From NCBI GenBank assembly GCA_029861865.1, contig JAOTYL010000012.1, positions 1 to 64,000 on the forward strand: a DNA stretch of 64,000 nt, given 5' to 3'. Under the pieces are notes generated by a model. That model had not been told where the DNA came from and searched no databases. It saw only the letters and a program-made list of their open reading frames with translations. Origin of the DNA: Myxococcales bacterium. GTDB lineage: Bacteria; Myxococcota_A; Polyangia; Polyangiales; Houyiibacteriaceae. Shown piece by piece: positions 27,512 to 45,831 of this stretch (within the stretch, counting starts at the first letter, position 1; every line of letters starts with the position of its first letter). Both the position numbers and the translations under genes were made by a program.

Positions 27512-27531
27512 AAGAAGGGACTGTCCTTCTT
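27512..27531. repeat. Palindromic repeat copy 5 (variant)
   Basis: AAGAAGGGACTGTCCTTCTT, a compensated variant of the family: both arms changed from GGGG/CCCC towards GAAGG/CCTTC so that pairing is kept. It lies between the DUF1552 stop and the dehydrogenase gene, supplying the TT of the dehydrogenase TAA stop (27530-27532, minus strand). Confidence 0.85.
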
Positions 27532-28549
27532 AGACGGCGCCGGTGGCTTCTAGGTGCTGACAGGTGCGCTCGATGCCTTCATCGACGCTGACGGACGGGT
27601 TGTAGCCGAGGTCTCGGCGAGCTTTTTCGATGCTGAAGTAGTGGTGCGTGCACATGTACCGGATCGCGAAGCGCGTGAGACCGTCTTCTGCATTCAACGT
27701 GCCCCCTTTTAGCGTGTCGATGCCCTCTTTCACAGCAGCGATTGCGTAGACCAGCGACTTGGGTGCGCGATACTTGATCGGGGGGAACCCGAGGCGTGCT
27801 GCGACCTTCCGGACGAAGTCCCAAAACGGCATCGGCTCGCCATTGGTAATGAAATAAGCCTGCCCGGCGGCTACGCTCTCGAGGCCGTCGTTGGCCAGCG
27901 CTTCGTCGGCGAGGATCACCGCATCGATCAGGTTAGTCACATAGGTGTAGTCCGAGAGCCAAACGCCTCGACCTACCTGAACGCGCAGCCGTCCCGATCT
28001 TGCTTGGTTGAGAAGGGCCGGCATGAAGCGTCGGTCACCGGGGCCAAAGACGACGTGGGGCCTGAGCGCCGTGGTCGCGACTCCACCCTTTCTGTTCGCA
28101 GAAAGGACATACTTTTCCGCGGCGATCTTGCTGTCGGCGTAGGGCGCTTGCGAAACCGACGAGTACGGCAAGCTTTCATCGCCGTTCTCGATGTCCTTTC
28201 CCTCGTAGACGACGCTCCCTGAGCTGATGTACACGAACCGTTTGACGCCATGTTGCTGGGCAGCCTCGAGCATGTTCTTGGTGCCGCCTAGATTCACCGC
28301 CCACACGAAGTCTTTCTTGTTCTGCTTGGTATGCACGATCGAGGCGTTGTGGATGATTGTGTCCACACCCTTGCAGGCCTCCATGACAGCGGCCTTGTCG
28401 GTGATGTCGATCCGTCGGTACTCGGCCCCCTGGACGGGGCATTCCTCCGCCAAGTCGATCGCGATGACCTCGTCGCCGCGAGCCTCGAGGGCGCGGGCGA
28501 TCTCGGCGCCGACGAACCCGCAGGCGCCCGTAACCAAGCTGACCGTCAT
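27530..28549 (-). CDS. NSDHL/ERG26-like 3-beta-hydroxysteroid dehydrogenase, C4-decarboxylating
   Basis: 339 residues of an extended SDR. Cofactor motif TGACGFVG (7-14) and catalytic Tyr137/Lys141 in PYADSKIAAEK. The sequence (IIHNASIVHTKQNKKDFVWAVNLGGTKNMLEAAQQHGVKRFVYISSGSVVY) follows the 3-beta-HSD/sterol-4-alpha-carboxylate 3-dehydrogenase family. In sterol synthesis this enzyme oxidises the 3-hydroxyl and releases the C4 carboxyl as CO2. It lies 3 bases downstream of a sterol-desaturase-type hydroxylase, the enzyme that would supply the C4 carboxylate. Hopanoid or other steroid substrates are alternatives. Confidence 0.85.
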   Translation of the reverse strand: MTVSLVTGACGFVGAEIARALEARGDEVIAIDLAEECPVQGAEYRRIDITDKAAVMEACKGVDTIIHNASIVHTKQNKKDFVWAVNLGGTKNMLEAAQQHGVKRFVYISSGSVVYEGKDIENGDESLPYSSVSQAPYADSKIAAEKYVLSANRKGGVATTALRPHVVFGPGDRRFMPALLNQARSGRLRVQVGRGVWLSDYTYVTNLIDAVILADEALANDGLESVAAGQAYFITNGEPMPFWDFVRKVAARLGFPPIKYRAPKSLVYAIAAVKEGIDTLKGGTLNAEDGLTRFAIRYMCTHHYFSIEKARRDLGYNPSVSVDEGIERTCQHLEATGAV

Positions 28550-28552
28550 GGT

Positions 28553-29227
28553 CTACTCCACGGTGCCGAAGATGATGTCGGGCAGTGGCGTGATCGACGC
28601 GTAGTTGCCGGAGATCATGCTGTGATGGTGCCGGTCGTGTTTGGCCGCGAGGATGCCCAAAGTCCTGACGGGGAAGCGCGGAATGTCGACGCCGGCATGG
28701 TTCAGAATGTTGAAGGCGGTGTACGTGATGAACAACAATGCAAGTGTGTAGAGATGCACGCCGCCCACGAGCGCGACCGAGCCGAAGAACAACGAGAGCC
28801 CCATGAAAGTCTCGATCGGATGAAGCAGCAGACTGTCGATGACGCGAGGATTGCGGGCGGCATGATGCACAGAATGGACCCCGCGGAGGATTCTCCACTC
28901 GTGGAAGAGGAATCGATGCATGAAGTAGTACCCGAAGTCGTATAGCAAGATGACAGTCGCGGCTTCGAGAGCGAAGCGCCAAGCGGGGATGGCATGATCG
29001 TAATAGAGGTAGTCGCCTAGGCCGTACATCACTGAGAAGATCAAGGTGATCGAGACCGTGGTGTTCAGGATGACCCTAGAGCGGAGCTCACGATCGGTTG
29101 CCGATCGGTGTGGATCGTCGCTGATCAGGAACTCTTGTGCGCGCTTGGAGCGGTACGCGTAGAGCAAGAGCGCGATCGCGAGGCCGGCTGAAGCGTAGCT
29201 CGCGAGAATGACGATGAGGACCTTCAT
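28553..29227 (-). CDS. Sterol desaturase/C4-methyl oxidase-like fatty acid hydroxylase
   Basis: 224 residues, membrane di-iron enzyme of the fatty acid hydroxylase superfamily. The histidine clusters are HRFLFH (104-109), HSVHH (118-122), NILNHAG (His177) and HDRHHH (197-202). Four hydrophobic segments surround them. This family includes ERG25/SMO (C4-methyl oxidation), C5-desaturases and alkane/carotenoid hydroxylases. The neighbouring NSDHL-like gene makes C4-methyl oxidase the best guess, but family similarity alone cannot decide. It needs an electron donor, possibly the reductase 27 bases upstream. Confidence 0.82.
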   Translation of the reverse strand: MKVLIVILASYASAGLAIALLLYAYRSKRAQEFLISDDPHRSATDRELRSRVILNTTVSITLIFSVMYGLGDYLYYDHAIPAWRFALEAATVILLYDFGYYFMHRFLFHEWRILRGVHSVHHAARNPRVIDSLLLHPIETFMGLSLFFGSVALVGGVHLYTLALLFITYTAFNILNHAGVDIPRFPVRTLGILAAKHDRHHHSMISGNYASITPLPDIIFGTVE

Positions 29228-29254: not shown

Positions 29255-30418
29255 CTAGTGCACCAATCTGAGAACTAGCGTGCCGGCGACCATGAACGCG
29301 AACACCGCGGCCGCCGCCAGCTGCGAAACACGCCTGCCGTACGAGGACTTAACCGCAGACGCCGTGCGAAACGAGGTGGAATCGGCGTCGAGCTCGAGTG
29401 GCTCGCTGCTCGCCGGGATGCTTTGGCAGAGGAGCGCAACCCCCCTTGCGATGTCTCGTTCGGAAAGCGCCTCGTGCGTTCGCATGTAGACCCGGCCGGT
29501 CCTGACGTGAGCCATGCACGAGCCGCAGTAACCGGACTCGCACGAGTGCCCAGGGTTCAAGCTGGCCGCCTGGGCACATTCGAGCAATGTCTTGCCCCGC
29601 ACGTAGGGAACCGACCGCGACCGGCCGTCGAGCCAAAGGCTGAACTTCGGGGGCGACTCGAAGGACTGGACATCTACGAGGCCGCGCTCTACCTGGTCGG
29701 GATCGGCAGGTGAGACGAATCGCTCGACGTACACCAGTTCTTCGTGCACGCCTGCTTCGTCGAGAGCGTCTTCGACGAGCTCGATGAACGCAGCTGGACC
29801 GCAGATGTAGAACTCGCCGATGTCGGTGTCATGCAAGTGCGACCGCAACTCGTCGCGGCTGAGATATCCGCTCGCGGAGTCGTAGTGATGGTGGACGACC
29901 AGGCGTTCCGAGTGCTCCCCGACGAGTCGATCGACCTCGTCTGCGTAGATCACCGAGTCGGGGCGCTGGTTTGCATAGACGAGGGTGATCGTTCGTTTGG
30001 TGGTGGCCAACGCGCTCTTGAGGAGGGAAATGATCGGGGTAATCCCGCTCCCGCCTGCGAACAGAAACAATGGAGCACCGTGGCGCGTCTCAGGGTCGAG
30101 AACGAAGCGTCCCTCGGGCACACTCGCACGAATCTTGTCACCAACTGCGAGATTGTCGTTCATCCAGTTCGAGACGCGACCGCCTTCGACTCGCTTGACG
30201 GCGATTTTCAGGGGCTCATCGAGGTCTGGGCAGCTCGACAGGGAGTAGCACCGCGTGACCTCGTGACCTTCCCATGGGAGCTCGAAGGTGAGATGCTGCC
30301 CGGCTCTGTAACGATACGCCTCGCGCAGCTCGGGCGGAACCCAAAGCTCGAACGAGGCACAGTCCGCGGTCTCTCGAGTCACGGCCGTAATCTCCAGCTC
30401 ATGAAGCTCGACGGTCAC
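29255..30418 (-). CDS. Ferredoxin reductase with [2Fe-2S] domain and C-terminal membrane anchor
   Basis: 387 residues from GTG 30418, which overlaps the TetR stop as GTGA. FAD motif RCYS (56-59), NAD motif GGSGITP (122-128) and YICGP (204-208), then a plant-type 2Fe-2S domain with Cys293, Cys298, Cys301 and Cys331. This is the arrangement of phenylacetate/KshB-type oxygenase reductases. Unusually, a hydrophobic helix at 366-385 (QLAAAAVFAFMVAGTLVLRL) follows the iron-sulfur domain. It may tether the protein to the membrane to serve the di-iron hydroxylase downstream, as cytochrome b5 does for ERG25. Confidence 0.88.
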   Translation of the reverse strand: MTVELHELEITAVTRETADCASFELWVPPELREAYRYRAGQHLTFELPWEGHEVTRCYSLSSCPDLDEPLKIAVKRVEGGRVSNWMNDNLAVGDKIRASVPEGRFVLDPETRHGAPLFLFAGGSGITPIISLLKSALATTKRTITLVYANQRPDSVIYADEVDRLVGEHSERLVVHHHYDSASGYLSRDELRSHLHDTDIGEFYICGPAAFIELVEDALDEAGVHEELVYVERFVSPADPDQVERGLVDVQSFESPPKFSLWLDGRSRSVPYVRGKTLLECAQAASLNPGHSCESGYCGSCMAHVRTGRVYMRTHEALSERDIARGVALLCQSIPASSEPLELDADSTSFRTASAVKSSYGRRVSQLAAAAVFAFMVAGTLVLRLVH

Positions 30419-31104
30419 GAGGCGTCTCCAAGGCCTGCCGATTCGAGCACCGAGGCGAGCCGCTCGGGTCTGCAGTAGCTCCGAAGCATGTGTCGGATCG
30501 CCTGATCTGTGACGTGCTTGGCATCCTGCTTGCAGCCGCGATCCATCCACATCGCAAGCCTCACCTGTTGGGAAACGATTACGATTCTCGCCATCAGCTC
30601 TGGATCGTCGTCGATCAGGTAACCATCTTCGATGCAACGTCGAAGGATGTCGGCGAAAAGCTGCAAGCCAGCGCCGAGCGCCTCTACTTGCTCAGGGCTT
30701 CGAAGAAGCTCGATCGTCGACCACGCGGTGACTTCTTTGAGCTGCATTCGCAGGAAGTCGCGACGCTTCATGAAGAACGCGAGCTGCATCCTGGTTCCGG
30801 CGATCAGCATCTCGATCGACGGGGCATCCTCTTGGAGAATCCCTTGGGCAAGCACCATGACCTCGCTCAGCCGGCGGCGATTGACGGCCCGGTAGATCTC
30901 CCACTTCGATTCGAAGACGCTGTAGAGCGTGGTCAGCGATACCCCCGCCTCGGCCGCCACCCGCTGGACCTTGGTGGCCTCGTAACCCACCTCGCCAAAC
31001 ACACGCTCGGCCGAATCGAGGATGGCCTCGCGATAGAGGTCTCGCTTCTTGTCTTTGAGGCTTTTCCGCGCTTTTGGCGCGATTTCTGCTGTTGGCATCA
31101 ACAT
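30415..31104 (-). CDS. TetR-family regulator heading the hydroxylase/dehydrogenase operon
   Basis: 229 residues. N-terminal HTH (REAILDSAERVFGEVGYEATKVQRVAAEAGVSLTTLYSVFESK, about 25-70) and a ligand-binding C-terminal domain. The start is ATG 31104, or the in-frame ATG 31098. It is first in an operon of TetR, ferredoxin reductase, C4-oxidase-like and NSDHL-like genes, with GTGA coupling to the second gene. It probably represses its own operon and responds to a lipid-like ligand; this is inference from family and context. Confidence 0.9.
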   Translation of the reverse strand: MLMPTAEIAPKARKSLKDKKRDLYREAILDSAERVFGEVGYEATKVQRVAAEAGVSLTTLYSVFESKWEIYRAVNRRRLSEVMVLAQGILQEDAPSIEMLIAGTRMQLAFFMKRRDFLRMQLKEVTAWSTIELLRSPEQVEALGAGLQLFADILRRCIEDGYLIDDDPELMARIVIVSQQVRLAMWMDRGCKQDAKHVTDQAIRHMLRSYCRPERLASVLESAGLGDAS

Positions 31105-35475: not shown

Positions 35476-37068
35476 ATGACTGTTCCGGTGCACGTGCAGC
35501 GCGGAGCGGCAGCCGCCGAAAAGCCGACCCACATCCCTTGCGTCGACCCCGCGACTAAAGAAAGACTCGGTGACATTCGCATCGACACCCCTGCCGATGT
35601 CGACGCCGCAGTCGCGCGTGCGAAAGTAGCCCAACGCGACTGGCGCCAGACTTCTTTTGAAGAGCGGCGCGCGGTGTTGCGCAGGTTGCTGGCGTACACC
35701 GTCGACAACAAAGACGAGATCTGCCTGACCATTCAACGCGACTCGGGCAAGACCCGCGAAAACGCACTCATCGGAGAGATCTGGACCACCTGCGAGAAGT
35801 TTCGGTGGATGATCAACAACGGCGAGAGACACCTTCGCCCTGAACGAGTGTCATCCGGGTTGCTCGTGCACAAAAAGGCGCGACTCGAATTCCATCCACT
35901 CGGTGTCGTTGCTTCGATCATTCCTTGGAACTACCCATTTCAGAACATCGTCAACCCGATCATTCCAGCGTTGATGGCTGGCAATGCGATTGTGATCAAG
36001 CCTTCCGAGTGGGTGGCCTGGTCGAGCGCACGATTCATCCAAGCGTTTCGAGGAGTGATCGAACAGGCCGGACACAATCCGGACCTGATTCAGTCGGTGC
36101 AAGGGTATGGGGCGACGGGCGCCGCACTTGTCCGCTCCGCGGTCGATACAATCGTCTTCATCGGCTCGGTCGAAAATGGACGACGCGTCATCGAGGGCAG
36201 CGCAAAGCGCACGACACCGGTGGTGATGGAGCTCGGCGGGAAGGACGCCTTCATCGTATGCGACGATGCTGATCTCGAACAGGCGGTTCATGCCGCGCTC
36301 GCCGGTTGCTATGTCAACTGCGGTCAGAACTGCGTCGCCTCCGAGCGGCTCCTAGTGCATGACGCCATCTACCAGGCCTTCGAAAGGCGTGCCGCTGAGC
36401 TCGTCAGAGGCTTTCGACAGGGCAACGGCCGCGAGGCGATTGTCGACGTTGGCGCGATCGTCACGCCGCTTCAGCTCGAGATCATCGAAAAAGCGGTCGA
36501 CGGGGCGATCGCCCAAGGGGCACGTCTGGTGGCTGGCGGCAAGCGAACGCTCACGGACCAAGGCGACTATTTCGAGCCGACGATCCTCGCCGATGTCACG
36601 CCCGACATGGAAATCGCACGAGACGAAGTGTTTGGCCCGATCATGCTTCTCATGCGCGTTCGCGACGACGAACAGGCGGTCGAGATCGCAAACGGCGTTT
36701 CTTACGGGCTTTCGTCTTCCGTTTTCTCGAAGAATCGTTCTCGCGCCCGGAAAATCGCATCGCAGCTCGAAGCGGGGATGAGTGCGATCAACGAGTTTGG
36801 CGGGATCACCTACATGGCTCAGGACCTAACGTTCGGCGGTGTCAAAGCATCGGGCTACGGGCGGATGAACGGGCGAGAGGGGCTGCGATCGATGTGCAAC
36901 ATCAAAGCGGTCATCGACGATCGACTCCCGATCAACCGAGCCAACAAATTGTTCCCGGTCCCTCCGAAGCTCTACGGCACGTTTAGCGGGGTCATCGACC
37001 TGGTCTACGGACGAGGATTGGCGCGACGGTGGCGCGGACTGGTGAAGCTGCTTAGTCGTAAGCCATGA
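35476..37068 (+). CDS. Aldehyde dehydrogenase
   Basis: 530 residues of an NAD(P)-dependent aldehyde dehydrogenase. IIPWNYPF (Asn152), VIKPSEW, the general base Glu252 in ELGGKDAF and the nucleophile Cys286 in GQNCVASER are all present. A C-terminal extension of about 40 residues (VPPKLYGTFSGVIDLVYGRGLARRWRGLVKLL) is amphipathic, suggesting membrane contact as in fatty aldehyde dehydrogenases. The stop overlaps the GMC oxidoreductase start as ATGA. An alcohol-to-acid conversion by the pair is plausible. Confidence 0.94.
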   Translation: MTVPVHVQRGAAAAEKPTHIPCVDPATKERLGDIRIDTPADVDAAVARAKVAQRDWRQTSFEERRAVLRRLLAYTVDNKDEICLTIQRDSGKTRENALIGEIWTTCEKFRWMINNGERHLRPERVSSGLLVHKKARLEFHPLGVVASIIPWNYPFQNIVNPIIPALMAGNAIVIKPSEWVAWSSARFIQAFRGVIEQAGHNPDLIQSVQGYGATGAALVRSAVDTIVFIGSVENGRRVIEGSAKRTTPVVMELGGKDAFIVCDDADLEQAVHAALAGCYVNCGQNCVASERLLVHDAIYQAFERRAAELVRGFRQGNGREAIVDVGAIVTPLQLEIIEKAVDGAIAQGARLVAGGKRTLTDQGDYFEPTILADVTPDMEIARDEVFGPIMLLMRVRDDEQAVEIANGVSYGLSSSVFSKNRSRARKIASQLEAGMSAINEFGGITYMAQDLTFGGVKASGYGRMNGREGLRSMCNIKAVIDDRLPINRANKLFPVPPKLYGTFSGVIDLVYGRGLARRWRGLVKLLSRKP

Positions 37069-38654
37069 GCGACGCCTTCGACTACATCGTGGTCGGCGGC
37101 GGTTCCGCCGGTTGTATCGTCGCGGCCGAGCTTGCAAAGGACTCGCGTGCGCGGGTGCTCTTGCTCGAAGCAGGCCCGACCGCGGAGGAACACCCCGAGA
37201 CGCTGGTCGCTAGCGGGTACAAGGAGGCGTTCATCAATGACGCCGTGATGGGAGAACGCTTTTCCGTGCCCCAAGATCACGCTGCCAAGCAGCGCGTGTT
37301 CGCAGGCACTGGAACGGTGATGGGCGGGAGCGGATCGGTGAACGGCATGGTCTACACGCGCGGGGCTCGCGAAGACTACGCGCAATGGCCCGACGGGTGG
37401 CATTGGGACGACAACCTCGCCGATTTCGAAGCGATCGAAGAGATCCTCCGCCCGCATCAGCGACCTCCCACCCTGTGGACCGAAGCCTGCATCGCGTCGG
37501 CTGAGGAAAACGGGTTCGAACGCAAGGAAGACCTCAACGATGGCAACATGAGCAATGTCATCGGCTACGAATGGATGTCGTACGAAGGCGATGAGCGTCG
37601 AAGCTCTTACGTGGCCTTCATCAAGGATGCGGGAGCGCGCGAGAACCTCACCGTACTGCCCGAAGCACGCGCTCACAGGGTCGTCTTCACGTCGGACAAA
37701 CGCGCGCGGGCTGTCGAGTTCGAGCACGAAGGAGAGTTGAAGCGTGCCGCGGCCGAGCGACAAATCGTTTTGTGCGCCGGGGCGCTCGAAACTCCGAAGC
37801 TTCTGCTTCTTTCAGGCATCGGGCCGAGTGAGCACCTACGCGCGTTCGACATTCCGATCGTGGCCGACCGTCCCTGCGTTGGAAGTGGCCTTCACGATCA
37901 TCCGAATGTCCCGATCTTCTTCAAAGCGAGTAGACACATCGATTGCTTCTACCCTCAGCTCTACAGCTTCTATCGAACCAATCAGGACAGTGACCTTCCC
38001 CCTTCACAAAGCGACACGTGCTACGTTTATTGGCCGGCACCCTCCGCCATGAAGCAGATGGCGCAGCGCATGCTTCCACCGCAAGTCATTCCTCACGGGT
38101 TCTACGGACCGCGTTCGAGGGCGATGGTCCGCGGCATGATCGGCGCGGCGTTCAAAGTCGGTGCGCTCCAGCGTTTTACCGATCGCATGTTCGGGATCAT
38201 CTTGATTCTGGGCAAGCCCAAGAGCCGCGGCACACTCCGATTGCAATCGACGCACGTGACTGAGCAAGCGCTGATCGACCCCGCCTATTACTCCAACGAA
38301 GAGGACATGGACACGATGATCGAGGGAGTTCGCGTCGCTAGACGGATCGGCAACGCAACGAGCCTCACGGCATGGGGCGCAAAAGAGCTGATGCCGGGCA
38401 AGCGGGTAACGAGCGATCAGGCCATCGCAAAGTACGTACGCAAGAACACGATCACGACCTATCACTTTGCCGGATCATGTGGCATGGGGGTGTGCGATTC
38501 CGACGCGGTGGATACGGAGCTGCGTCTTCGGGGCGTGACCGGCCTCCGAGTAGCCGATGCATCGGTGATCCCCTGGACTCCGGTTTCAGCGCTCAACGCG
38601 CCGAGCATGTTGATCGGCTATCGCGCCGCACGACTCATCCGCAATGCGCGATGA
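37065..38654 (+). CDS. GMC-family FAD-dependent oxidoreductase
   Basis: 529 residues. FAD-binding YIVVGGGSAGCIVAAELA at the N-terminus, GTGTVMGGSGSVNGMVYTRG (GMC signature 1), CAGALETPKLLLLSGIGP (signature 2), and the C-terminal YHFAGSCGMG ... ASVIPWTPVSALNAPSMLIGYRAA with the catalytic His. It oxidises an alcohol, transferring electrons to FAD and then oxygen or an acceptor. Translationally coupled to the aldehyde dehydrogenase. Related enzymes include choline dehydrogenase and cholesterol oxidase-like proteins. Confidence 0.94.
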   Translation: MSDAFDYIVVGGGSAGCIVAAELAKDSRARVLLLEAGPTAEEHPETLVASGYKEAFINDAVMGERFSVPQDHAAKQRVFAGTGTVMGGSGSVNGMVYTRGAREDYAQWPDGWHWDDNLADFEAIEEILRPHQRPPTLWTEACIASAEENGFERKEDLNDGNMSNVIGYEWMSYEGDERRSSYVAFIKDAGARENLTVLPEARAHRVVFTSDKRARAVEFEHEGELKRAAAERQIVLCAGALETPKLLLLSGIGPSEHLRAFDIPIVADRPCVGSGLHDHPNVPIFFKASRHIDCFYPQLYSFYRTNQDSDLPPSQSDTCYVYWPAPSAMKQMAQRMLPPQVIPHGFYGPRSRAMVRGMIGAAFKVGALQRFTDRMFGIILILGKPKSRGTLRLQSTHVTEQALIDPAYYSNEEDMDTMIEGVRVARRIGNATSLTAWGAKELMPGKRVTSDQAIAKYVRKNTITTYHFAGSCGMGVCDSDAVDTELRLRGVTGLRVADASVIPWTPVSALNAPSMLIGYRAARLIRNAR

Positions 38655-38746: not shown

Positions 38747-39829
38747 CTAAGGTCGCGCACGGGCGGTGTAGAGGGGCAGATCGAGGATCGACAGCACGCC
38801 GGGCTCGGCCGCACAAACTGCAGGGATCGCATTGACGACCCGCATCGCCGTTCCCGTGACGATACCGGTGTTGTGATCCCCGTCGTCGCCTTTGAGATCG
38901 ATCTCGCAGTTGAACTCGGGGGAGCCCTTGATCTCGATGCGGTATCCGGACTTGTCGCCACTCAGCCGCTCCCAATGTGGCGCGATATCTCCCCGCAGGC
39001 GCTGCGTGTGGGACGAAATCACGACCGGGCGACCATCGCTGATCCCTCGAACCTCGAAACGCACGCCGGCGCACATGCCCTTCTTGATGACGCCCATGTC
39101 GGTGTTGAACGATTCCGGTGCGGGCGCACGCTCGCTGTCTTCGCGGATCTCGTCGAGCTCGAAGCCCAACGCGTCGGCGACGAGCTCGATCACGCTGCCC
39201 CAGCCGGCCTTCATGGCGCCCGGGTAGAACATCGGGGCTTTGAAATCGAGTGGGTGGCCGAAGCCAAAGAACTCGCCGGTGAAGCTCGGGTCTGCGTAGG
39301 TCGAGTAGTCCATTATCTCCGCCACGCGCACCGAATCGACACGCTCACACCCGGCCGTGAGGATCAGCGGGATCAGGTCTCCCGTGAAACCCGGGTCGAA
39401 ACCAGAGGTAAAAAAGCTGACGTGATTTGCGGCGCAGGCCTCAGAGAGCGGGCCGGTGAGCTTCTTGCTAGCAAACGGTGGATAGACCATCGACACTACG
39501 GCCGTGTTGGCGATGTTCTTTCCCGAGCTCAAGATTCTTAGCCAGTCATCGAGCGCCTCGTAAACCCGGGTCTCGCCAATCGCCATGTAACAGACACAAT
39601 CGGCATCGATCGACAAGAGGGCTCCGGCGTCGTTGGTGGCGATGATCCCAGTCATTTTGTCGAGGCCACAAAGCTCGGCGGCATCCTTGCCGACCTTGTC
39701 CTCCGAGTGCGCATGGACCCCGACGAGCTCGAGGTCGGGATGGCTCACAATGCCGCGCAGGGCGCGGTACCCGGTGTTGCCAGTTCCCCATTGGATCACG
39801 CGCAGCGGCTTGTTCGCGTGAGCCGTCAT
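38747..39829 (-). CDS. DapB-like NAD(P)-dependent reductase/dehydrogenase
   Basis: 360 residues. The N-terminal Rossmann motif VIQWGTGNTGYRALRGI and C-terminal domain resemble the dihydrodipicolinate reductase-like group of mycobacteria and other steroid degraders, and 2,4-diaminopentanoate dehydrogenase. The lysine-biosynthesis catalytic HxxxHH is not apparent, so it is unlikely to be DapB itself. It starts two bases after the extradiol dioxygenase stop and is probably co-transcribed with it. Substrate unknown. Confidence 0.85.
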   Translation of the reverse strand: MTAHANKPLRVIQWGTGNTGYRALRGIVSHPDLELVGVHAHSEDKVGKDAAELCGLDKMTGIIATNDAGALLSIDADCVCYMAIGETRVYEALDDWLRILSSGKNIANTAVVSMVYPPFASKKLTGPLSEACAANHVSFFTSGFDPGFTGDLIPLILTAGCERVDSVRVAEIMDYSTYADPSFTGEFFGFGHPLDFKAPMFYPGAMKAGWGSVIELVADALGFELDEIREDSERAPAPESFNTDMGVIKKGMCAGVRFEVRGISDGRPVVISSHTQRLRGDIAPHWERLSGDKSGYRIEIKGSPEFNCEIDLKGDDGDHNTGIVTGTAMRVVNAIPAVCAAEPGVLSILDLPLYTARARP

Positions 39830-39831
39830 CG

Positions 39832-40755
39832 TCAGTCTTTCTTTTCTCGCTCTCGTTTCGCGTCGCGGTAGGCCTTAGTCAGAAGCTGCGGCGGATGGTG
39901 CCCCCACTCGCTCACGATGCCATGCGTGGTGGGCTCCCATGTCTCGTCGTCGACCTCGACGCCACCGTAGCCAAACTCGAAGTGGAACCCCGAAGGGGTG
40001 TACCCGTAGAACGAGAACATCTTGTCGTTAGGATGACGTCCGAGGGTTTGGTGCACCATCCCGCCAGAGAACAGGAAGCGATCGTAGCAGAGCCCTACCT
40101 CATCCATCGCTCGTGCCTGGACCATGAAGTGATGAATGCGCTTGCCGTGCCCCTCGCCAAAGGCGAACGAATGGTGTCGCGGGTTGGCGTGCATGAAGGT
40201 CACGTCGATCTTGTGGCCGAAGTACTCGCAGCGGATGTAGTCGCTCAGCCTGAGCCCGAGCATGTTCGCATAGAAGGCTTCGTGCTCCTCCGCGTTCTTG
40301 GAGGCGACAACCACATGGCCGAGGCCCTGCGCGCTAGCGACGAATCCCGAGCGAACGACCTCCGAGACGAAGGGCTCGTCTGCCATCTTCGGACCATGGT
40401 AGAGCTCGCATGGGTTGCCCGCCGGATCTTCGAACCGAACGAGCGCATCGACGTTTCGACGTGCGGTGTCTTCGGCTGTGCCGCGTATCACTTCGTGGCC
40501 GGCGGCTTCCAAACGCCCGACGATGCTTTCGAGCGCTTCAGGGCCTTCGACTTCCCAACCTACCGCGGCGAGGTCGTCCGCGGCCCCTGGTTGGATGAAA
40601 AAGCGCTGAAAATGCTCGTCCATGCGCAGTCCGAAGCCCTGCTGGCCCCTGTCGCCGACGATCTCGAGGCCCAGGATTTTCGTGCCGAAGTCCCTCCATG
40701 CAGCGAGGTCGCTCACCTCGAAGACCAGGTACCCCAACTGCAACACGCGGCTCAT
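39832..40755 (-). CDS. Extradiol ring-cleavage dioxygenase (BphC/HsaC-like)
   Basis: 307 residues from ATG 40755 (GGAGG seven bases upstream). A two-module vicinal-oxygen-chelate fold. Ferrous iron ligands fall at His147, His209 and Glu260, and the second-shell residues His195, His241 and Tyr250 are also present. These are almost exactly the positions in BphC-type enzymes. HsaC cleaves 3,4-DHSA in cholesterol ring degradation. It therefore probably opens a catechol ring of an aromatic or steroid metabolite. A DapB-like reductase follows. Confidence 0.88.
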   Translation of the reverse strand: MSRVLQLGYLVFEVSDLAAWRDFGTKILGLEIVGDRGQQGFGLRMDEHFQRFFIQPGAADDLAAVGWEVEGPEALESIVGRLEAAGHEVIRGTAEDTARRNVDALVRFEDPAGNPCELYHGPKMADEPFVSEVVRSGFVASAQGLGHVVVASKNAEEHEAFYANMLGLRLSDYIRCEYFGHKIDVTFMHANPRHHSFAFGEGHGKRIHHFMVQARAMDEVGLCYDRFLFSGGMVHQTLGRHPNDKMFSFYGYTPSGFHFEFGYGGVEVDDETWEPTTHGIVSEWGHHPPQLLTKAYRDAKREREKKD

Positions 40756-40816
40756 TTGCTTTGCCTCCGCGCTGAGCATAGTACGTCGCTACAGTCTCGC
40801 ACGGAGAAAGGAAACC

Positions 40817-41590
40817 ATGAAGGAGCTCCTGGACCTTCGAGAGAAGGTAGTCGTCGTCACGGGCGGCACGATGGGCGCTGGGAAAGGGATCGCACTTCGA
40901 TTCCTCGAGATGGGAGCCCACGTGATCATCTGTGCGCGTAACCAGCCCGGGGCACCGATCGCGGTAGACGGCCGCGAGGCGCTCTTCATTCCCGCGAATG
41001 TGCGCGAGCTCGAAGACCTCGACCGGGTGATCGAGGAGGCGACGACACGCCATGGCCGCCTCGACGTGCTCATCAACAACGCGGGCGGTTCTCCTCCCGC
41101 AGATGCAGCAACGGCTTCACCTCGGTTTTCAGCTGCGATCATCGATCTCAATTTGACCGCGCCCCTCAACTTCGCTCAGAAGGCAAACGCCGTCATGCAG
41201 CAGCAAGATGATGGCGGCTGCATCATCAACATTGGAAGCGTAAGCGGCCTCCGTCCCTCACCCGAGACGGCCGCGTATGGAGCAGCCAAAGCCGGGCTGC
41301 TCAACTTGACGACATCGCTCGCGGTGGAGTGGGCGCCCAAGGTTCGCGTCAATGCGGTGGCGGCTGGGATGATTCTTACCGAGAAGGCAGAGCTACATTT
41401 CGGCGAGGGAGAGGTCCGAGAGGCCATCGAGAAGACCGCGCCGATGGGACGGATGGCGCTCCCACGAGACATCGCCGATGTGTGCCTCTTCCTCGCTTCG
41501 CCACTTGCGAGCTACGTCACCGGCGCCACCATCCTTCTTCATGGCGGGGGCGAATGGCCGGCGTTTCTAAGGGCTTCCAAGGGGGCGTGA
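40817..41590 (+). CDS. SDR-family oxidoreductase
   Basis: 257 residues from ATG 40817 (AAAGGA upstream). Cofactor motif TGGTMGAGKGIA (15-26), INNAGG and IINIGSVSG are present, with catalytic YGAAKAG. The ending (PRDIADVCLFLASPLASYVTGATILLHGGGEWPA) is typical of classical FabG-like SDRs. It is divergent from the dioxygenase (61 bases between starts) and lies 81 bases before the EXPERA-like gene. Confidence 0.92.
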   Translation: MKELLDLREKVVVVTGGTMGAGKGIALRFLEMGAHVIICARNQPGAPIAVDGREALFIPANVRELEDLDRVIEEATTRHGRLDVLINNAGGSPPADAATASPRFSAAIIDLNLTAPLNFAQKANAVMQQQDDGGCIINIGSVSGLRPSPETAAYGAAKAGLLNLTTSLAVEWAPKVRVNAVAAGMILTEKAELHFGEGEVREAIEKTAPMGRMALPRDIADVCLFLASPLASYVTGATILLHGGGEWPAFLRASKGA

Positions 41591-41671
41591 GCCTGCTCGC
41601 GGTTCTGCATCGCTCCCCGGCCCCGTTGCTGCTTGCAGAATCGAGCTGGAAACGGCACTTTCGCAAGCCAA

Positions 41672-42406
41672 ATGGAATCTGACCTTCAAACCACGCTCGC
41701 CGTCGACGGCGACCAGGAACAGGCGCGCGGGCTCGCGATCCCGGCGTGGACTTTCATGATCGCCTTCATCGTCGGCGGCACCTTGTTTCACATCTGGCTG
41801 CACCGGACCGTGCGCGAGACGTACAACGTCCACCAAATCGGCCTGATCTTCTTTTTGATGGTGAACCTTCTGGTGAACTTCTGGGAGATCGGTCTCTTCG
41901 TCTGCCGCGACCAGATCCGCGACGAATACGAGGCCACCAAAGACGCATATCGTGGGCGCGAAGCCGATCGCTTCAGCGAGATGTTTCAAAAGCGCATCCC
42001 GGTGTTGAGGCTGCTCTCGTTCAGGCAGTGGACCGAAGTTTGGTCGAGCTATGCGCTCTTCGACCCAGGCTATGCGAGCCGAAGCTCCTTCGGCTTCAAC
42101 ATCGACTTCGGCAATGGCTGGTCTACCCCGATTTTCGCGACACTCTTCGCCTTTGGCATGACGTTCGAGCTCATGCCCGCGCGCATCCTCGGCATCATCG
42201 GCGTGATCATGTTCTGGCAGATGTTCTACGGAACCGTGGTTTACTTCTTTCAGTTCTTCAACGCCGGGCGACACAAAGGCCACTCCCCGGGCACGTTGGC
42301 GTTGTTCATCGGCACGAGCAACGGCCTCTGGTTCATCTTTCCACTCTGGGGCCTCGCCCTCAGCATCCAAATGATCCTGAACGACTCGTACACCCTATTC
42401 CTCTAA
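41672..42406 (+). CDS. EXPERA/EBP-like membrane protein, candidate sterol Delta8-Delta7 isomerase
   Basis: 244 residues from ATG 41672, with five hydrophobic segments. The last third, QMFYGTVVYFFQFFNAGRHKGH then FIGTSNGLWFIFPLWGLALS, follows the spacing of human EBP (Gln-X2-Tyr-Gly, Tyr-Phe, Gly-His, Asn-X-Leu-Trp-X3-Pro). The first helices (FWEIGLFVCRD) include a Glu at the position of an EBP active-site acid, but the preceding His is not in register. EBP shifts the sterol C8 double bond. It lies tail to tail with the cycloeucalenol cycloisomerase gene. Assignment is by pattern and context. Confidence 0.6.
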   Translation: MESDLQTTLAVDGDQEQARGLAIPAWTFMIAFIVGGTLFHIWLHRTVRETYNVHQIGLIFFLMVNLLVNFWEIGLFVCRDQIRDEYEATKDAYRGREADRFSEMFQKRIPVLRLLSFRQWTEVWSSYALFDPGYASRSSFGFNIDFGNGWSTPIFATLFAFGMTFELMPARILGIIGVIMFWQMFYGTVVYFFQFFNAGRHKGHSPGTLALFIGTSNGLWFIFPLWGLALSIQMILNDSYTLFL

Positions 42407-42427
42407 AAAGGGGACAGTCCCCTTTTT
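42405..42427. repeat. Palindromic repeat copy 7, bridging two convergent stops
   Basis: Five A, GGGGACAGTCCCC, five T. The first two A belong to the TAA stop of the EXPERA-like gene (42404-42406) and the last T to the TGA stop of the cycloisomerase gene (42427-42429). It fills the whole intergenic gap and would make an ideal bidirectional terminator. Confidence 0.92.
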
Positions 42428-43221
42428 CAGATCGGGCCGAAGATCGCCGCAGCGAAGTCCAACAGAAACAACATGATGAGGCCCGCCGTGCAAGCCGCCC
42501 CCGCCGTCATCGTCAAGCTCCAGCTCGTGCTCGGCTTCTCGTCCAAGTGATAGAAAATCGGAAAGCTCGCGATGAAGTAGAGCGAATAGAAAAGCGATCC
42601 GTAGGCCAGCATGCGGTCGATGTCTTTGTAGTGAAACTGAGTGGCGATCAACGGGTTTGCCATCGCCCGTGTCTCGATCCACGCCCAAGAATAGGCGACA
42701 ACGACGACTAGCACCGGCCACATGATCGTGCCGAAGGGAAGCCTCGAGGTGCGGAGTCGGCGTAACACGATGATCGCCGTGGTGTGATAGGTCATGAAGA
42801 ACGCTTGGGTCAGGAGATACATGACTATCGGGACGCGTTGTTCTCCCGAGCCTACGAGTGTGGCATCGAGATTGAGCTCGATCATCGGGTAGTCGTAGAC
42901 CATGCCGAGAATGTCGAAGAAGTACTCCGAGCCAAAGTAGTTTGCGGCAAAGCTGAAGATCGCGATGTAGAGATTCGCCTTGAACCAATACGTCTGGTAC
43001 CAGGCTCTACCGAGTGGTCTTTCGTCACGAATCAGTGCTGGCACGACCATCAAAGGAAGTGCCACAGCCAACCCAGTGATGAAGAAGCCCCACTCCTCGA
43101 TACGGTTGGTGATGCCGAGAGCCATCACCAGGCCGATCAGGGCCATCCAGATCGGTGAATAGATCAGAAAAAACTTTTCGCCCCACGCCTTACTCGGGTT
43201 CTCGGAAAACCAACGCGCCAT
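42427..43221 (-). CDS. Cycloeucalenol cycloisomerase (CPI1 homologue)
   Basis: 264 residues with six to seven membrane segments. It follows plant CPI1 along its length: ENPSKAWGEKFFLIYSPIWM (start), YWFKANLYIAIFSFAANYFG, HTTAIIVLRRLRTS, MLAYGSLFYSLYFIASFPIF, YHLDEKPSTSWSL and the C-terminal FLLDFAAAIFGPI. CPI1 opens the 9-beta,19-cyclopropane ring of cycloeucalenol to give obtusifoliol in plant sterol synthesis. Here it is the last gene of a TetR, CYP51, NTF2-like operon, nine bases after the previous stop. A bacterial substrate could be a cycloartenol-derived sterol. Confidence 0.92.
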   Translation of the reverse strand: MARWFSENPSKAWGEKFFLIYSPIWMALIGLVMALGITNRIEEWGFFITGLAVALPLMVVPALIRDERPLGRAWYQTYWFKANLYIAIFSFAANYFGSEYFFDILGMVYDYPMIELNLDATLVGSGEQRVPIVMYLLTQAFFMTYHTTAIIVLRRLRTSRLPFGTIMWPVLVVVVAYSWAWIETRAMANPLIATQFHYKDIDRMLAYGSLFYSLYFIASFPIFYHLDEKPSTSWSLTMTAGAACTAGLIMLFLLDFAAAIFGPI

Positions 43222-43230
43222 CGGTCGTAG

Positions 43231-43833
43231 CTATCCAAACAACGCGATTCGTACGAGCGCCTGAAAATTCTTCAGCTTTTCCAACCTGCCGGGCTCTTTA
43301 CGGATACGCTCGTGGCCTGGCAGCATCTCGCCTTTTGCCTGGCGGTGGATCTTCTCCTTGATCGTCGCGTTGAGATGTCCGGCCCCCGCAAGCTCGAAGA
43401 AGACCGCTTTCGTGTTACCAAAATCGAAGAAGTCGCGCTGCCAGCTCCACTTGTAGTCGCCTGCGTACTTGAACCACGAACCGCCCACCCCAGAGATCTC
43501 ATAGTCCGTGCCGTCCGGCCGCTTGAAAGGAGCGACCTGTCGCCAGAATCCAACCACCTGCCCCTGTTTGTCGTCGATCAAAACGGTTTCGTAGGGATAC
43601 GCCCACTCCTCGAATCCACGCATGTGATAACCGAGTGCGACCTCTTTGATCTCCTGAAGGCCGCGCGCCCAAAACTCCTCGTTTGGACCGACATTCCAGC
43701 GGTAGACGGCGTCGTGGGTATAGTGAGCGCCGAGATGGGTGCTCCAGTCGCCCTCCCGTTCGGCGTTGCGGTTTGCTTCGAGCCACCGCTTCATCATTTC
43801 TTCGAGCTCTTCACGCGGGAACGCGGGCATCAT
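43231..43833 (-). CDS. NTF2/SnoaL-like protein
   Basis: 200 residues with the cone-shaped NTF2-like pattern: EELEEMMKRWLEANRNAEREGDWSTHLGAHYTHDAVYRWN, GLQEIKEVALGYHMRGFEEWAYPYETVLID and GFWRQVAPFKRPDG. In such proteins a hydrophobic pocket binds steroids or polyketides (as ketosteroid isomerase and SnoaL). It sits between CYP51 and the cycloisomerase in the same operon, so a sterol-binding or isomerase role is plausible. The TGA of CYP51 ends one base before its ATG. Confidence 0.8.
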   Translation of the reverse strand: MMPAFPREELEEMMKRWLEANRNAEREGDWSTHLGAHYTHDAVYRWNVGPNEEFWARGLQEIKEVALGYHMRGFEEWAYPYETVLIDDKQGQVVGFWRQVAPFKRPDGTDYEISGVGGSWFKYAGDYKWSWQRDFFDFGNTKAVFFELAGAGHLNATIKEKIHRQAKGEMLPGHERIRKEPGRLEKLKNFQALVRIALFG

Positions 43834-43834
43834 C

Positions 43835-45211
43835 TCATCCTCTCTGACCCTTGCGGTAGCGCACGTGGATCGGGGGCTTGGGCCCGAGCACGACGCGTTC
43901 GAAGTCGGTAGTGATCGGGTCGCCGACGAGCTCGAAGTCGTAGTTGTTGAGCAGGACAGCCATGATGGTCTTCATCTGCAAGAGCGCAAAAGCATTGCCC
44001 AAGCATTTGTGGCGACCACCACCGAAAGACACGTAGGCGAATGGCACCCGGTCCTCTTCGCGGCCCGGTCCATAGCGCTCGGGGTCGTATTCGAGAGCGT
44101 TCCGGAACACCGCGTCTTCGCGGTGGGCGACGATCGGCGACACCGACACCCAGTCACCCTTCTTGATCTGATAACCGAGGATCTCGCAGTCCTGCATCGC
44201 AGCCCGGAAGAGCATGAAGAGCGGAGGATGAATGCGTAGGGCCTCCTTGATTGCCCATTCGGTCCTCTCGAGGTCGCGCATGGCGGAGAAGCCATACTCC
44301 TCGCTGTCGGCGAAGCGGTCGCGCACCTCTGCACAGACCTTGGCGTAATAATCGGGCGCGCGTAACAGCTCGAGCAGCGACCATGCGGTCGTGACCGAGC
44401 TCGTGTGATGGCCCGCAAACATGTTGGCGATCAGAATCCCGGTGATCTCGTGGTTGGTCAGCATCGACCCATCCGAGTATTTCGACTCCATCAAGGTCTG
44501 GGTGAAATCCTCGCCGGAAATGCCGCTCGTTCTGCGTCGTTCGACGATGGTCGAGACCATCTCGCCGAGTCGCTTCCGGGCAGCGTCTCGCTTTCGAAAC
44601 GCTGGAATGGGCAAATGCGCGTTGATGTACGCGATGGGCACGATCCCCGCTTCAAGATCGGCGTATACTCGTGCGAACTCTTCGCTCATCTCGTTTCGAA
44701 ACTCTTCCCCGAGAAGGCAGCGGCTGGACGTGAAGCTCGTCAACGTTCCAAAAAACCCGCAGACCTCGATCTGACCGGTGTCGCCCCAGTCCGCGATCAT
44801 CTGGTTGGTTTCGTCGGCGATAATGTCGGTGTACGTTCGCATGCGGTTCTGGCGAAGGGCGGGGTGCATCATGTGCAACTGCTCGTACATTCGCTCTGGA
44901 GTCGTGTCGTAAACGACCCCCTTGCCGAAGACGGGAATCATCATTTTGTAGGCTTCAGTGGGGCTCAACACCTCGTCGGGAAGCCGGAAGAGTGACTCGT
45001 GAGCCTCCGGCCCCGTGAAAAGGGTCACGCTCTTGCCAAACAGCTTGAACTGGGCCACCCGTCCGCATTCGTCGTACGCCCGCTGCAGGAGACCCACCGG
45101 ATCGCGTGCGAAATCGATGGTGTGGCCGATGAAAGGAAACCCGCCCTCGAGTCGAGGGGGCTTCCTGAGCACGGTGGACGCTGTGGTACGGGCTCGTGCA
45201 GTCGTCGTCAT
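43835..45211 (-). CDS. cyp51: Sterol 14-alpha-demethylase CYP51
   Basis: 458 residues. The CYP51 BC-loop signature is clear in AYKMMIPVFGKGVVYDTTPERM. The I-helix is FAGHHTSS (265-272), as in Mycobacterium CYP51 (GHHTSS instead of the generic AGxDT). The ExxR is in KEALRIHPPL, and the haem loop is FGGGRHKCLG (396-405) with Cys403. There is no N-terminal membrane anchor, so it is soluble like bacterial CYP51s. It removes the C14 methyl in three steps and needs ferredoxin and a reductase. The start overlaps the TetR stop as ATGA. Confidence 0.94.
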   Translation of the reverse strand: MTTTARARTTASTVLRKPPRLEGGFPFIGHTIDFARDPVGLLQRAYDECGRVAQFKLFGKSVTLFTGPEAHESLFRLPDEVLSPTEAYKMMIPVFGKGVVYDTTPERMYEQLHMMHPALRQNRMRTYTDIIADETNQMIADWGDTGQIEVCGFFGTLTSFTSSRCLLGEEFRNEMSEEFARVYADLEAGIVPIAYINAHLPIPAFRKRDAARKRLGEMVSTIVERRRTSGISGEDFTQTLMESKYSDGSMLTNHEITGILIANMFAGHHTSSVTTAWSLLELLRAPDYYAKVCAEVRDRFADSEEYGFSAMRDLERTEWAIKEALRIHPPLFMLFRAAMQDCEILGYQIKKGDWVSVSPIVAHREDAVFRNALEYDPERYGPGREEDRVPFAYVSFGGGRHKCLGNAFALLQMKTIMAVLLNNYDFELVGDPITTDFERVVLGPKPPIHVRYRKGQRG

Positions 45212-45831
45212 CCGTTCCCCTTGATGAGAATTCGTTCGAGCTGCTGCTCCACCTCATCGGCCAGGTCGTCCGCATCGACCTTCATGCCTGCCTCGACCCA
45301 TGCCGAGATCAACACCTGCTGGATGGCAACCATGAGGCGCGCCTGGATCACCGGATCGCCTTCGAAGACATCGCCGTCGCACATCGCTTCTTCGATGACG
45401 CGCGCGATCAAACCGATGCCACGTTGCCATGCGCTGACCAGCCCTTCCCCGACCTCCTGCGGATTGGATGCCCACGCACCACTGCTGTGGAGATGAATGC
45501 GAAGATAGTCGGGGTGCTCCGTCAGCCAGCATATGAAAACTCGATTCCCTTGCCTCAAGCGGGTTGCGGCCTTGTCGTGGGTCCCGAGCGCTCTACCGGC
45601 GAGCTGAAACAGCTGGCCGAGGCGATCGTCGTGGACGGCATCCAAGATGTCGGACTTGCCCTCGAACACGGAGTAGAGCGTGCCGAGGGACAGCCCAGAC
45701 TCCGCCGCGATGTCTTGGATCTTCGCCCCTTCGTAACCGCGCGATGCGAACAGCCGTTCGGCGGCGTCCACGATCAGCGAGCGATACATCGTCGTCTTGG
45801 CGCTTCGGGCTCTGGCCGCGGCTTGTGACAT
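45208..45831 (-). CDS. TetR-family regulator heading the CYP51 operon
   Basis: 207 residues. HTH in RSLIVDAAERLFASRGYEGAKIQDIAAESGLSLGTLYSVFEGKSDI (about 17-62); the LSLGTLYSVFEGK recognition helix is close to that of the TetR at 30415. AAGGG lies upstream of its ATG. GAATACGATTC, a GAAT/ATTC inverted repeat at 45849-45859, lies just before it and is a candidate operator. It probably regulates its own operon (CYP51, NTF2-like, cycloisomerase) in response to a sterol or lipid. Confidence 0.9.
   Translation of the reverse strand: MSQAAARARSAKTTMYRSLIVDAAERLFASRGYEGAKIQDIAAESGLSLGTLYSVFEGKSDILDAVHDDRLGQLFQLAGRALGTHDKAATRLRQGNRVFICWLTEHPDYLRIHLHSSGAWASNPQEVGEGLVSAWQRGIGLIARVIEEAMCDGDVFEGDPVIQARLMVAIQQVLISAWVEAGMKVDADDLADEVEQQLERILIKGNG

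Follow-up and report, generated by a model that had tools for sequence, protein, structure and literature searches.

A divergent EXPERA-fold membrane protein, possibly a sterol isomerase, in a sterol gene cluster of an uncultured myxobacterium

A sterol gene cluster of an uncultured myxobacterium contains a gene for a membrane protein that, by structural modelling, has the five-transmembrane EXPERA fold of human EBP, the 3-beta-hydroxysteroid Delta8,Delta7-isomerase (PDB 6oht, 8w0r). The protein belongs to a separate EXPERA-fold subfamily, which was found here only in Myxococcota. Its residues retain most of a carbocation isomerase's machinery, except for the proton donor. We consider it an even chance that the protein moves a double bond in sterols as an isomerase, most likely from Delta8 to Delta7. 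What it acts on, which reaction it performs and in which direction, what donates the proton and what it does for the cell are inferred here.

The gene and its neighbours

The window is the whole stretch of DNA that was analysed, 64,000 nucleotides. The gene under study is called the focal gene. The relevant features are:

27530 to 28549, minus strand: 3-beta-HSD family; candidate sterol C4 decarboxylase/dehydrogenase
28553 to 29227, minus strand: fatty-acid hydroxylase family; candidate sterol C4-methyl oxidase or desaturase
29255 to 30637, minus strand: FAD/NAD/2Fe-2S oxygenase reductase, conserved in congeners
35476 to 37068, plus strand: aldehyde dehydrogenase, identified by reading the sequence; conserved in the cluster
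37065 to 38654, plus strand: GMC oxidoreductase
38747 to 39829, minus strand: DapB/2,4-diaminopentanoate dehydrogenase-like oxidoreductase
39832 to 40779, minus strand: HsaC/BphC-like extradiol dioxygenase, beside the focal gene also in congeners
40811 to 41590, plus strand: SDR oxidoreductase (PRK07856-like), upstream neighbour of the focal gene on the same strand
41672 to 42406, plus strand: focal gene, predicted EXPERA-fold five-helix membrane protein of 244 aa; ATG at 41672, stop codon ending at 42406
42407 to 42425, no strand: palindrome AAAGGGGACAGTCCCCTTT between convergent stop codons; possible shared terminator, dispersed repeat
42427 to 43221, minus strand: cyclopropylsterol (cycloeucalenol) cycloisomerase-like membrane protein (CPI) of 264 aa, apparently similar to plant CPI
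43231 to 43833, minus strand: homologue of the bacterial 8,14-sterol reductase (8,14-Bsr), 200 aa; SnoaL/NTF2-like by Pfam, below the cut-off
43835 to 45211, minus strand: CYP51 sterol 14-demethylase, by PDB matches
45208 to 45831, minus strand: TetR-family regulator, first gene of the group with CYP51

The initial annotation had taken the focal gene for an unassigned membrane gene, and its coordinates hold: this is a real, conserved gene. No better gene was found on the reverse strand or in the alternative frames of the locus, and a TTG at 41633 is a possible alternative start. The dN/dS ratio is about 0.08 against a 94%-identical copy and 0.18 against a 69%-identical one, which puts the gene under strong purifying selection. 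The EBP-like spacing reported for the C-terminal part is present as well (Q183-x2-Y186-G187, Y191-F192, G203-H204, N217-G-L-W220, P224). In a scan of 6,596 open segments of at least 100 aa, a redundant set of 1.43 million residues from fetched loci, this spacing was restricted to the focal gene and its own homologues.

The gene lies tail to tail with the CPI-like gene, as had been noted, with facing stop codons some 20 bp apart and the palindrome between them. Copies of AAAGGGGACAGTCCCCTTT occur at seven places in the window at two mismatches or fewer (1668, 1746, 4334, 5904, 32417, 42407 and 45890), where shuffles lead one to expect none.

The placement in a sterol gene cluster is supported by CYP51, the CPI-like gene and a block around the focal gene that is conserved across the genus. 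The CPI-like protein is 36% identical over its full length (162 bits) to a provisional plant CPI sequence; Pfam and NCBIfam models gave no match on it. The top PDB matches of the CYP51 product are named Cytochrome P450 51 (450.8 bits), and M. tuberculosis CYP51 matches with 374.6 bits. For 8,14-Bsr, Y37, Y43, Y78, Y80, D133 and D136 have been named as pocket residues (PMC13277303). The homologue has all six, at a constant offset of +1: Y38, Y44, Y79, Y81, D134 and D137. On the other side of the focal gene, the SDR gene overlaps it in one relative (L029).

Predicted fold

The AlphaFold2 model of the focal protein, built on an alignment of 15 sequences, has a pLDDT of 86. It contains five membrane helices, all long (residues 25-48, 53-77, 140-165, 170-197 and 206-237), which is the number given by the initial annotation. 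In structural alignment human EBP comes out on top (Z 16.2, rmsd 2.8 over 183 residues), followed by sigma-2 receptor/TMEM97 at Z of about 11, and then by unrelated helical proteins at Z of 6.8 or less. Foldseek also puts human EBP first (probability 1.00, E 1.4e-3), and gives a probability of 1.00 to EBP only.

A second AlphaFold2 model, of a roughly 30% identical relative from another lineage, has a pLDDT of 89. Its top match is again human EBP (Z 16.2, rmsd 3.0 over 182 residues), with the best non-EXPERA entry at 8.1, and the Foldseek probability is once more 1.00 for EBP only.

The annotation had suggested remote homology to EBP/EXPERA, to be checked by structure prediction and by profile-profile search, and to be given up if the fold turned out unlike EXPERA or an unrelated family matched clearly. 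EXPERA structures come first in both models, and neither of these contrary outcomes occurred. Together with the profile comparison below, this bears out the homology.

Homology to EBP

With hhalign, the profile of the focal family matches a profile of human EBP and Myxococcota EBP-like proteins at 92.8% probability (E 4e-7), and at 91.1% in a local repeat. The human EBP query is identical to PDB 6oht from residue 2 onward. As controls, 40 column shuffles gave at most 0.6%, reversed profiles 0.1-0.2% and the cycloisomerase family 0.1%, while EBP against the TMEM97-like set, the positive control, gave 97.9%. When the human sequence is left out, the EBP-like profile still scores 64.7% against the focal family. 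The profile-profile search sets a homology probability of 91-93% against negative controls of 0.6% or less. A genome scan with the EBP profile matched the focal-family homologue in one other genome (G048, E 4e-8); at E 1e-3 it did not pick up the focal gene itself.

Pfam and NCBIfam scans of the focal protein gave no matches, and a PHROGs scan and a PDB sequence search with it gave nothing meaningful. The Pfam model for EXPERA (PF05241) is reached by two of 15 family members, with a best E of 0.033, and the focal protein stays below its gathering threshold. At most, then, the protein counts as a homologue with the EXPERA fold that the Pfam model misses. Pairwise identity to human EBP is about 22%, over 108 aligned columns only. 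Such figures, and the missing Pfam and NCBIfam matches, would also be seen if the EBP resemblance were a coincidence and the gene came from an unrelated membrane family. Given two AlphaFold2 models, a controlled profile comparison and a residue-by-residue register, this is extremely improbable.

A protein of the TMEM97/sigma-2 type, with its four-helix core, was considered and rejected: the focal protein has five helices, and hhalign gives its family 0.2% against the TMEM97-like set. TMEM97/sigma-2 and the bacterial TMEM97-like proteins, including two in the host genome (L001, L002), do share with it the EXPERA fold, an acid at the Glu80 site and the lack of His76. However, TMEM97-like proteins align from residue 48 of the focal protein on only, and so are without its first helix. 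The aromatic W..Y...D..Y register is also absent from them.

In the family tree, the focal family is a separate, fully supported clade beside EBP and the TMEM97-like proteins, on a long branch (2.45). That branch, a conserved ID-V/F-GNG-x-S/T-T motif that is absent from EBP, and the clustering with oxidoreductases could point to some other sterol-acting membrane enzyme on an EXPERA scaffold, such as a reductase, a hydratase or a demethylation partner. But no cofactor-binding motif was seen in the focal protein, and the residues it retains are those of a carbocation isomerase, so that another chemistry is quite improbable.

Residues of the EBP active site

In human EBP, the proposed proton donor is His76 and the acceptor Glu80, with Glu122 in a supporting part and Trp196 assigned to the carbocation; the H76A and E80A mutants have no activity (PMC6549186). 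Asn193 and Trp196 are contacts of ligand and carbocation. W124-x2-Y127-x3-D131-x2-Y134 fixes the register of the focal protein and corresponds to W101-Y104-D108-Y111 in EBP. The putative equivalents are then E72 for E80, D145 for E122, N148 for T125, N217 for N193 and W220 for W196.

E72 is nearly invariant in the focal family, and hhalign pairs it with EBP E80. D145 is invariant, and its spacing from the shared Tyr equals that of Glu122; BLASTP aligns this pair, where hhalign has a gap. D145, N148, N217 and W220 are invariant in all 15 sequences. Together with W124, Y127, D131 and Y134, they remain invariant down to about 30% identity.

The exception is His76. The initial annotation had found the helix-2 histidine out of register, and this doubt was correct: V68, four residues before the conserved Glu, takes the place of H76, and the position is hydrophobic in those aligned homologues that cover it. 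Because the proton donor is missing, the focal protein is, by residue criteria, not an EBP orthologue. It may nevertheless work like EBP. Further EBP-like paralogues without a helix-2 His exist in the same genus: L106 (genome G001), and L162 and L163 in congeners. Among these paralogues the sequence reads ALLWEIPW or NALWEIPW. The loss of His76 thus recurs in this group.

Taken together, human EBP and the focal protein have in common the N..W and YG..YF motifs and equivalents of Glu80, Asn193, Trp196, Tyr104, Asp108, Tyr111, Tyr160, Tyr165 and Pro200. They differ in that the focal protein lacks His76, has Asp for Glu122, Asn for Thr125 and a small residue at the W82 position, has a longer loop between helices 2 and 3, and carries the IDVGNG motif of its own. 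The canonical EBP-like proteins of other Myxococcota (L091-L096, L099-L101) are profile-related to it and share the aromatic/Asp register, the acid pair and N..W. Unlike the focal family, which forms its own clade, they retain HxxxE (H76/E80) and Glu122.

A protein without the donor histidine could also be non-catalytic, and bind sterols, sense them or hand them on to the enzymes encoded nearby, a role suggested for TMEM97. TMEM97-like proteins in these genomes have lost the histidine too; EBP-type isomerase activity is reported to be lacking in TMEM97, itself an EXPERA protein (PMC13382799); and canonical EBP-like genes coexist with distant members of the focal family. Conversely, the focal protein has the extra first helix of EBP, N..W and the acid pair are conserved columns in its family, its profile lies near EBP (91%) and far from the TMEM97-like set (0.2%), and its gene is embedded among sterol-modifying enzymes. 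A purely binding role is unlikely, if by no means far-fetched.

Distribution

Within the 57 genomes searched, the focal gene has homologues in 16 of the 18 congeners and in two other genomes of the order. Two short conserved peptides were the basis of a wider scan, over 84,980 species genomes, which gave 25 loci, all in MAGs. Their titles name Myxococcales, Myxococcota, Polyangiaceae or Deltaproteobacteria, and in one case just bacterium. One congener (G004) has two copies of the focal gene on different contigs (L029, L030), 69% and 62% identical to the copy in the window.

The focal family and CPI occur together in 18 of the 19 family-positive genomes among these 57 relatives. One genome has the family only, and two have CPI only. 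Outside the genus, co-occurrence is 2/2 against 1/36 (p 0.004), which represents few independent events. One of the CPI-only genomes (G025) carries a canonical EBP. In the host genome a canonical EBP was sought and not found; its two other EXPERA genes are TMEM97-like.

Six genomes with distant family members were searched with a concatenated query. All have 8,14-Bsr homologues together with canonical EBP-like genes; CPI gave no match in any of them. Since they hold both, the focal family is not a strict replacement of EBP, and it need not do EBP's job. In one such genome (G363, contig C135) the distant family gene lies beside a gene for an ERG24-type reductase, in divergent orientation.

This leaves room for a sterol isomerase of other positional specificity, for example one that turns a Delta8(14) sterol made by 8,14-Bsr into Delta7 or Delta8. 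An 8,14-Bsr homologue is two genes away in the same cluster, and with 8,14-Bsr and a canonical EBP-like gene in six of the six distant-member genomes, a different job would be left for the focal family. However, no 8,14-Bsr match was found in 10 of 17 family-positive genus members, including genomes G005 and G013, which are rated 100% complete, and nine genomes have 8,14-Bsr without the focal family. Another positional specificity is distinctly unlikely. The narrower idea of service solely to the 8,14-Bsr product is weakened by the same ten genomes.

Sterol synthesis or breakdown

In the host genome, an oxidosqualene-cyclase-type gene with a VSDCTAE motif adjoins a squalene epoxidase family gene, and for that reason the host may make its own sterols. 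It also has two full-length ERG4/ERG24-family reductases (L158 8882-10261, L157 8829-10094). By eye, one looks ERG4-like (C24(28)) and the other Delta14-reductase-like.

No oxidosqualene cyclase match was found in 12 of the 17 family-positive genus members, four of them rated 100% complete. KshA_C-type Rieske genes are present in every searched genus member, with six in the host genome. The host also has an Hsa-type cluster (L170, C8:165500-185400) with an HsaA-like monooxygenase (420 bits, cut-off 450), a meta-cleavage hydrolase-like protein, hydratase, aldolase, acetaldehyde dehydrogenase, KshA and thiolases. A cholesterol-oxidase-like protein elsewhere in the host genome falls below its cut-off. 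KshA adjoins a reductase gene and, elsewhere, a cholesterol-oxidase-like gene (L170, L173, L174).

From these genes, the congeners appear able to break down sterols. The cluster is conserved in congeners that have steroid-degradation markers and no oxidosqualene cyclase match, so it is probably not purely biosynthetic. Gene content and chemistry lead us to infer a locus for reshaping sterol nuclei, in many cases of foreign origin, before they are broken down. According to PMC5790920, an earlier survey of sequenced genomes had the 9,10-seco pathway restricted to Actinobacteria and Proteobacteria; set against that statement, Myxococcota with 9,10-seco genes would widen the known range.

Proposed function

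Cycloisomerase, CYP51 and Delta14 reductase are familiar from eukaryotic sterol synthesis. Here, cyclopropane opening by CPI, C14 demethylation by CYP51 and Delta14 reduction would leave a Delta8-type sterol, which would enter the membrane cavity of the focal protein. There the proton would come from a donor that is not His76, which is missing here, W220 and N217 would stabilise the carbocation, and the E72/D145 acid pair would take a proton off.

The possible use of this lies at carbon 9. A cyclopropane ring or a Delta8 bond would block this carbon to 9-alpha-hydroxylation by KshA. CPI and a Delta8-Delta7 isomerase would free it, and 9,10-seco ring opening could follow. The locus would so prepare exogenous sterols of plant or algal type, or the cell's own where these are made, for breakdown.

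Counted for the isomerase are the conserved N..W and acid pair, the fold, the profile homology, the sterol-gene context, the co-occurrence with CPI, the failure to find a canonical EBP in the host genome, the ERG24-type neighbour of a distant homologue and the steroid-degradation genes. Counted against it are the absence of His76, the change of Glu122 to Asp, the reported lack of EBP-type activity in TMEM97, the coexisting canonical EBP-like genes, the empty Pfam and NCBIfam scans, the EBP-profile scan that missed the focal gene and the two other EXPERA genes of the host. The initial annotation is sustained in part: remote EBP homology, the EXPERA fold and the sterol-cluster setting hold, and its conditional proposal of a Delta8-Delta7 isomerase is plausible. 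The absent His76 and the canonical EBP-like genes in the genomes of distant relatives speak against that proposal. The accompanying remark that this step has not been clearly assigned in bacteria is outdated, because the literature mentions homologues of the C-8 isomerase in Calothrix (PMC10202945) and Methylotuvimicrobium (PMC13277303). Literature searches found no direct prior work on bacterial EXPERA isomerases or on bacterial cycloartenol breakdown.

The widest version of the proposal is that Myxococcota use a cycloisomerase, CYP51, a Delta14 reductase and a His-independent EXPERA isomerase to normalise foreign plant or algal sterols for KshA/9,10-seco catabolism, and that the focal gene founds a class of His-independent sterol isomerases. 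This is tentative, and we lean somewhat against it. If true, sterols are handled in bacteria by an EBP-fold branch that does without the histidine regarded as essential in the human protein, and this has a bearing on the mechanism of a pharmacologically important enzyme. Sterol-modifying enzymes would gain a catabolic role in sediment myxobacteria. It would also matter when sterol gene clusters are taken to mean that sterols are produced, and so for views on how sterol synthesis arose and for sterane biomarkers.

Variation next to CYP51

In some congeners a KshA_C-type Rieske oxygenase adjoins CYP51 (L178 1714-2706; G018 C11:26745-27371). It may be an SdmA-like C4 demethylase. The window's contig has no listed copy. 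In G018, the 8,14-Bsr gene (C11:29808-30403, L028) matches in two frames that adjoin each other, as a frameshift or an assembly error would produce; the CYP51 gene next to it is intact.
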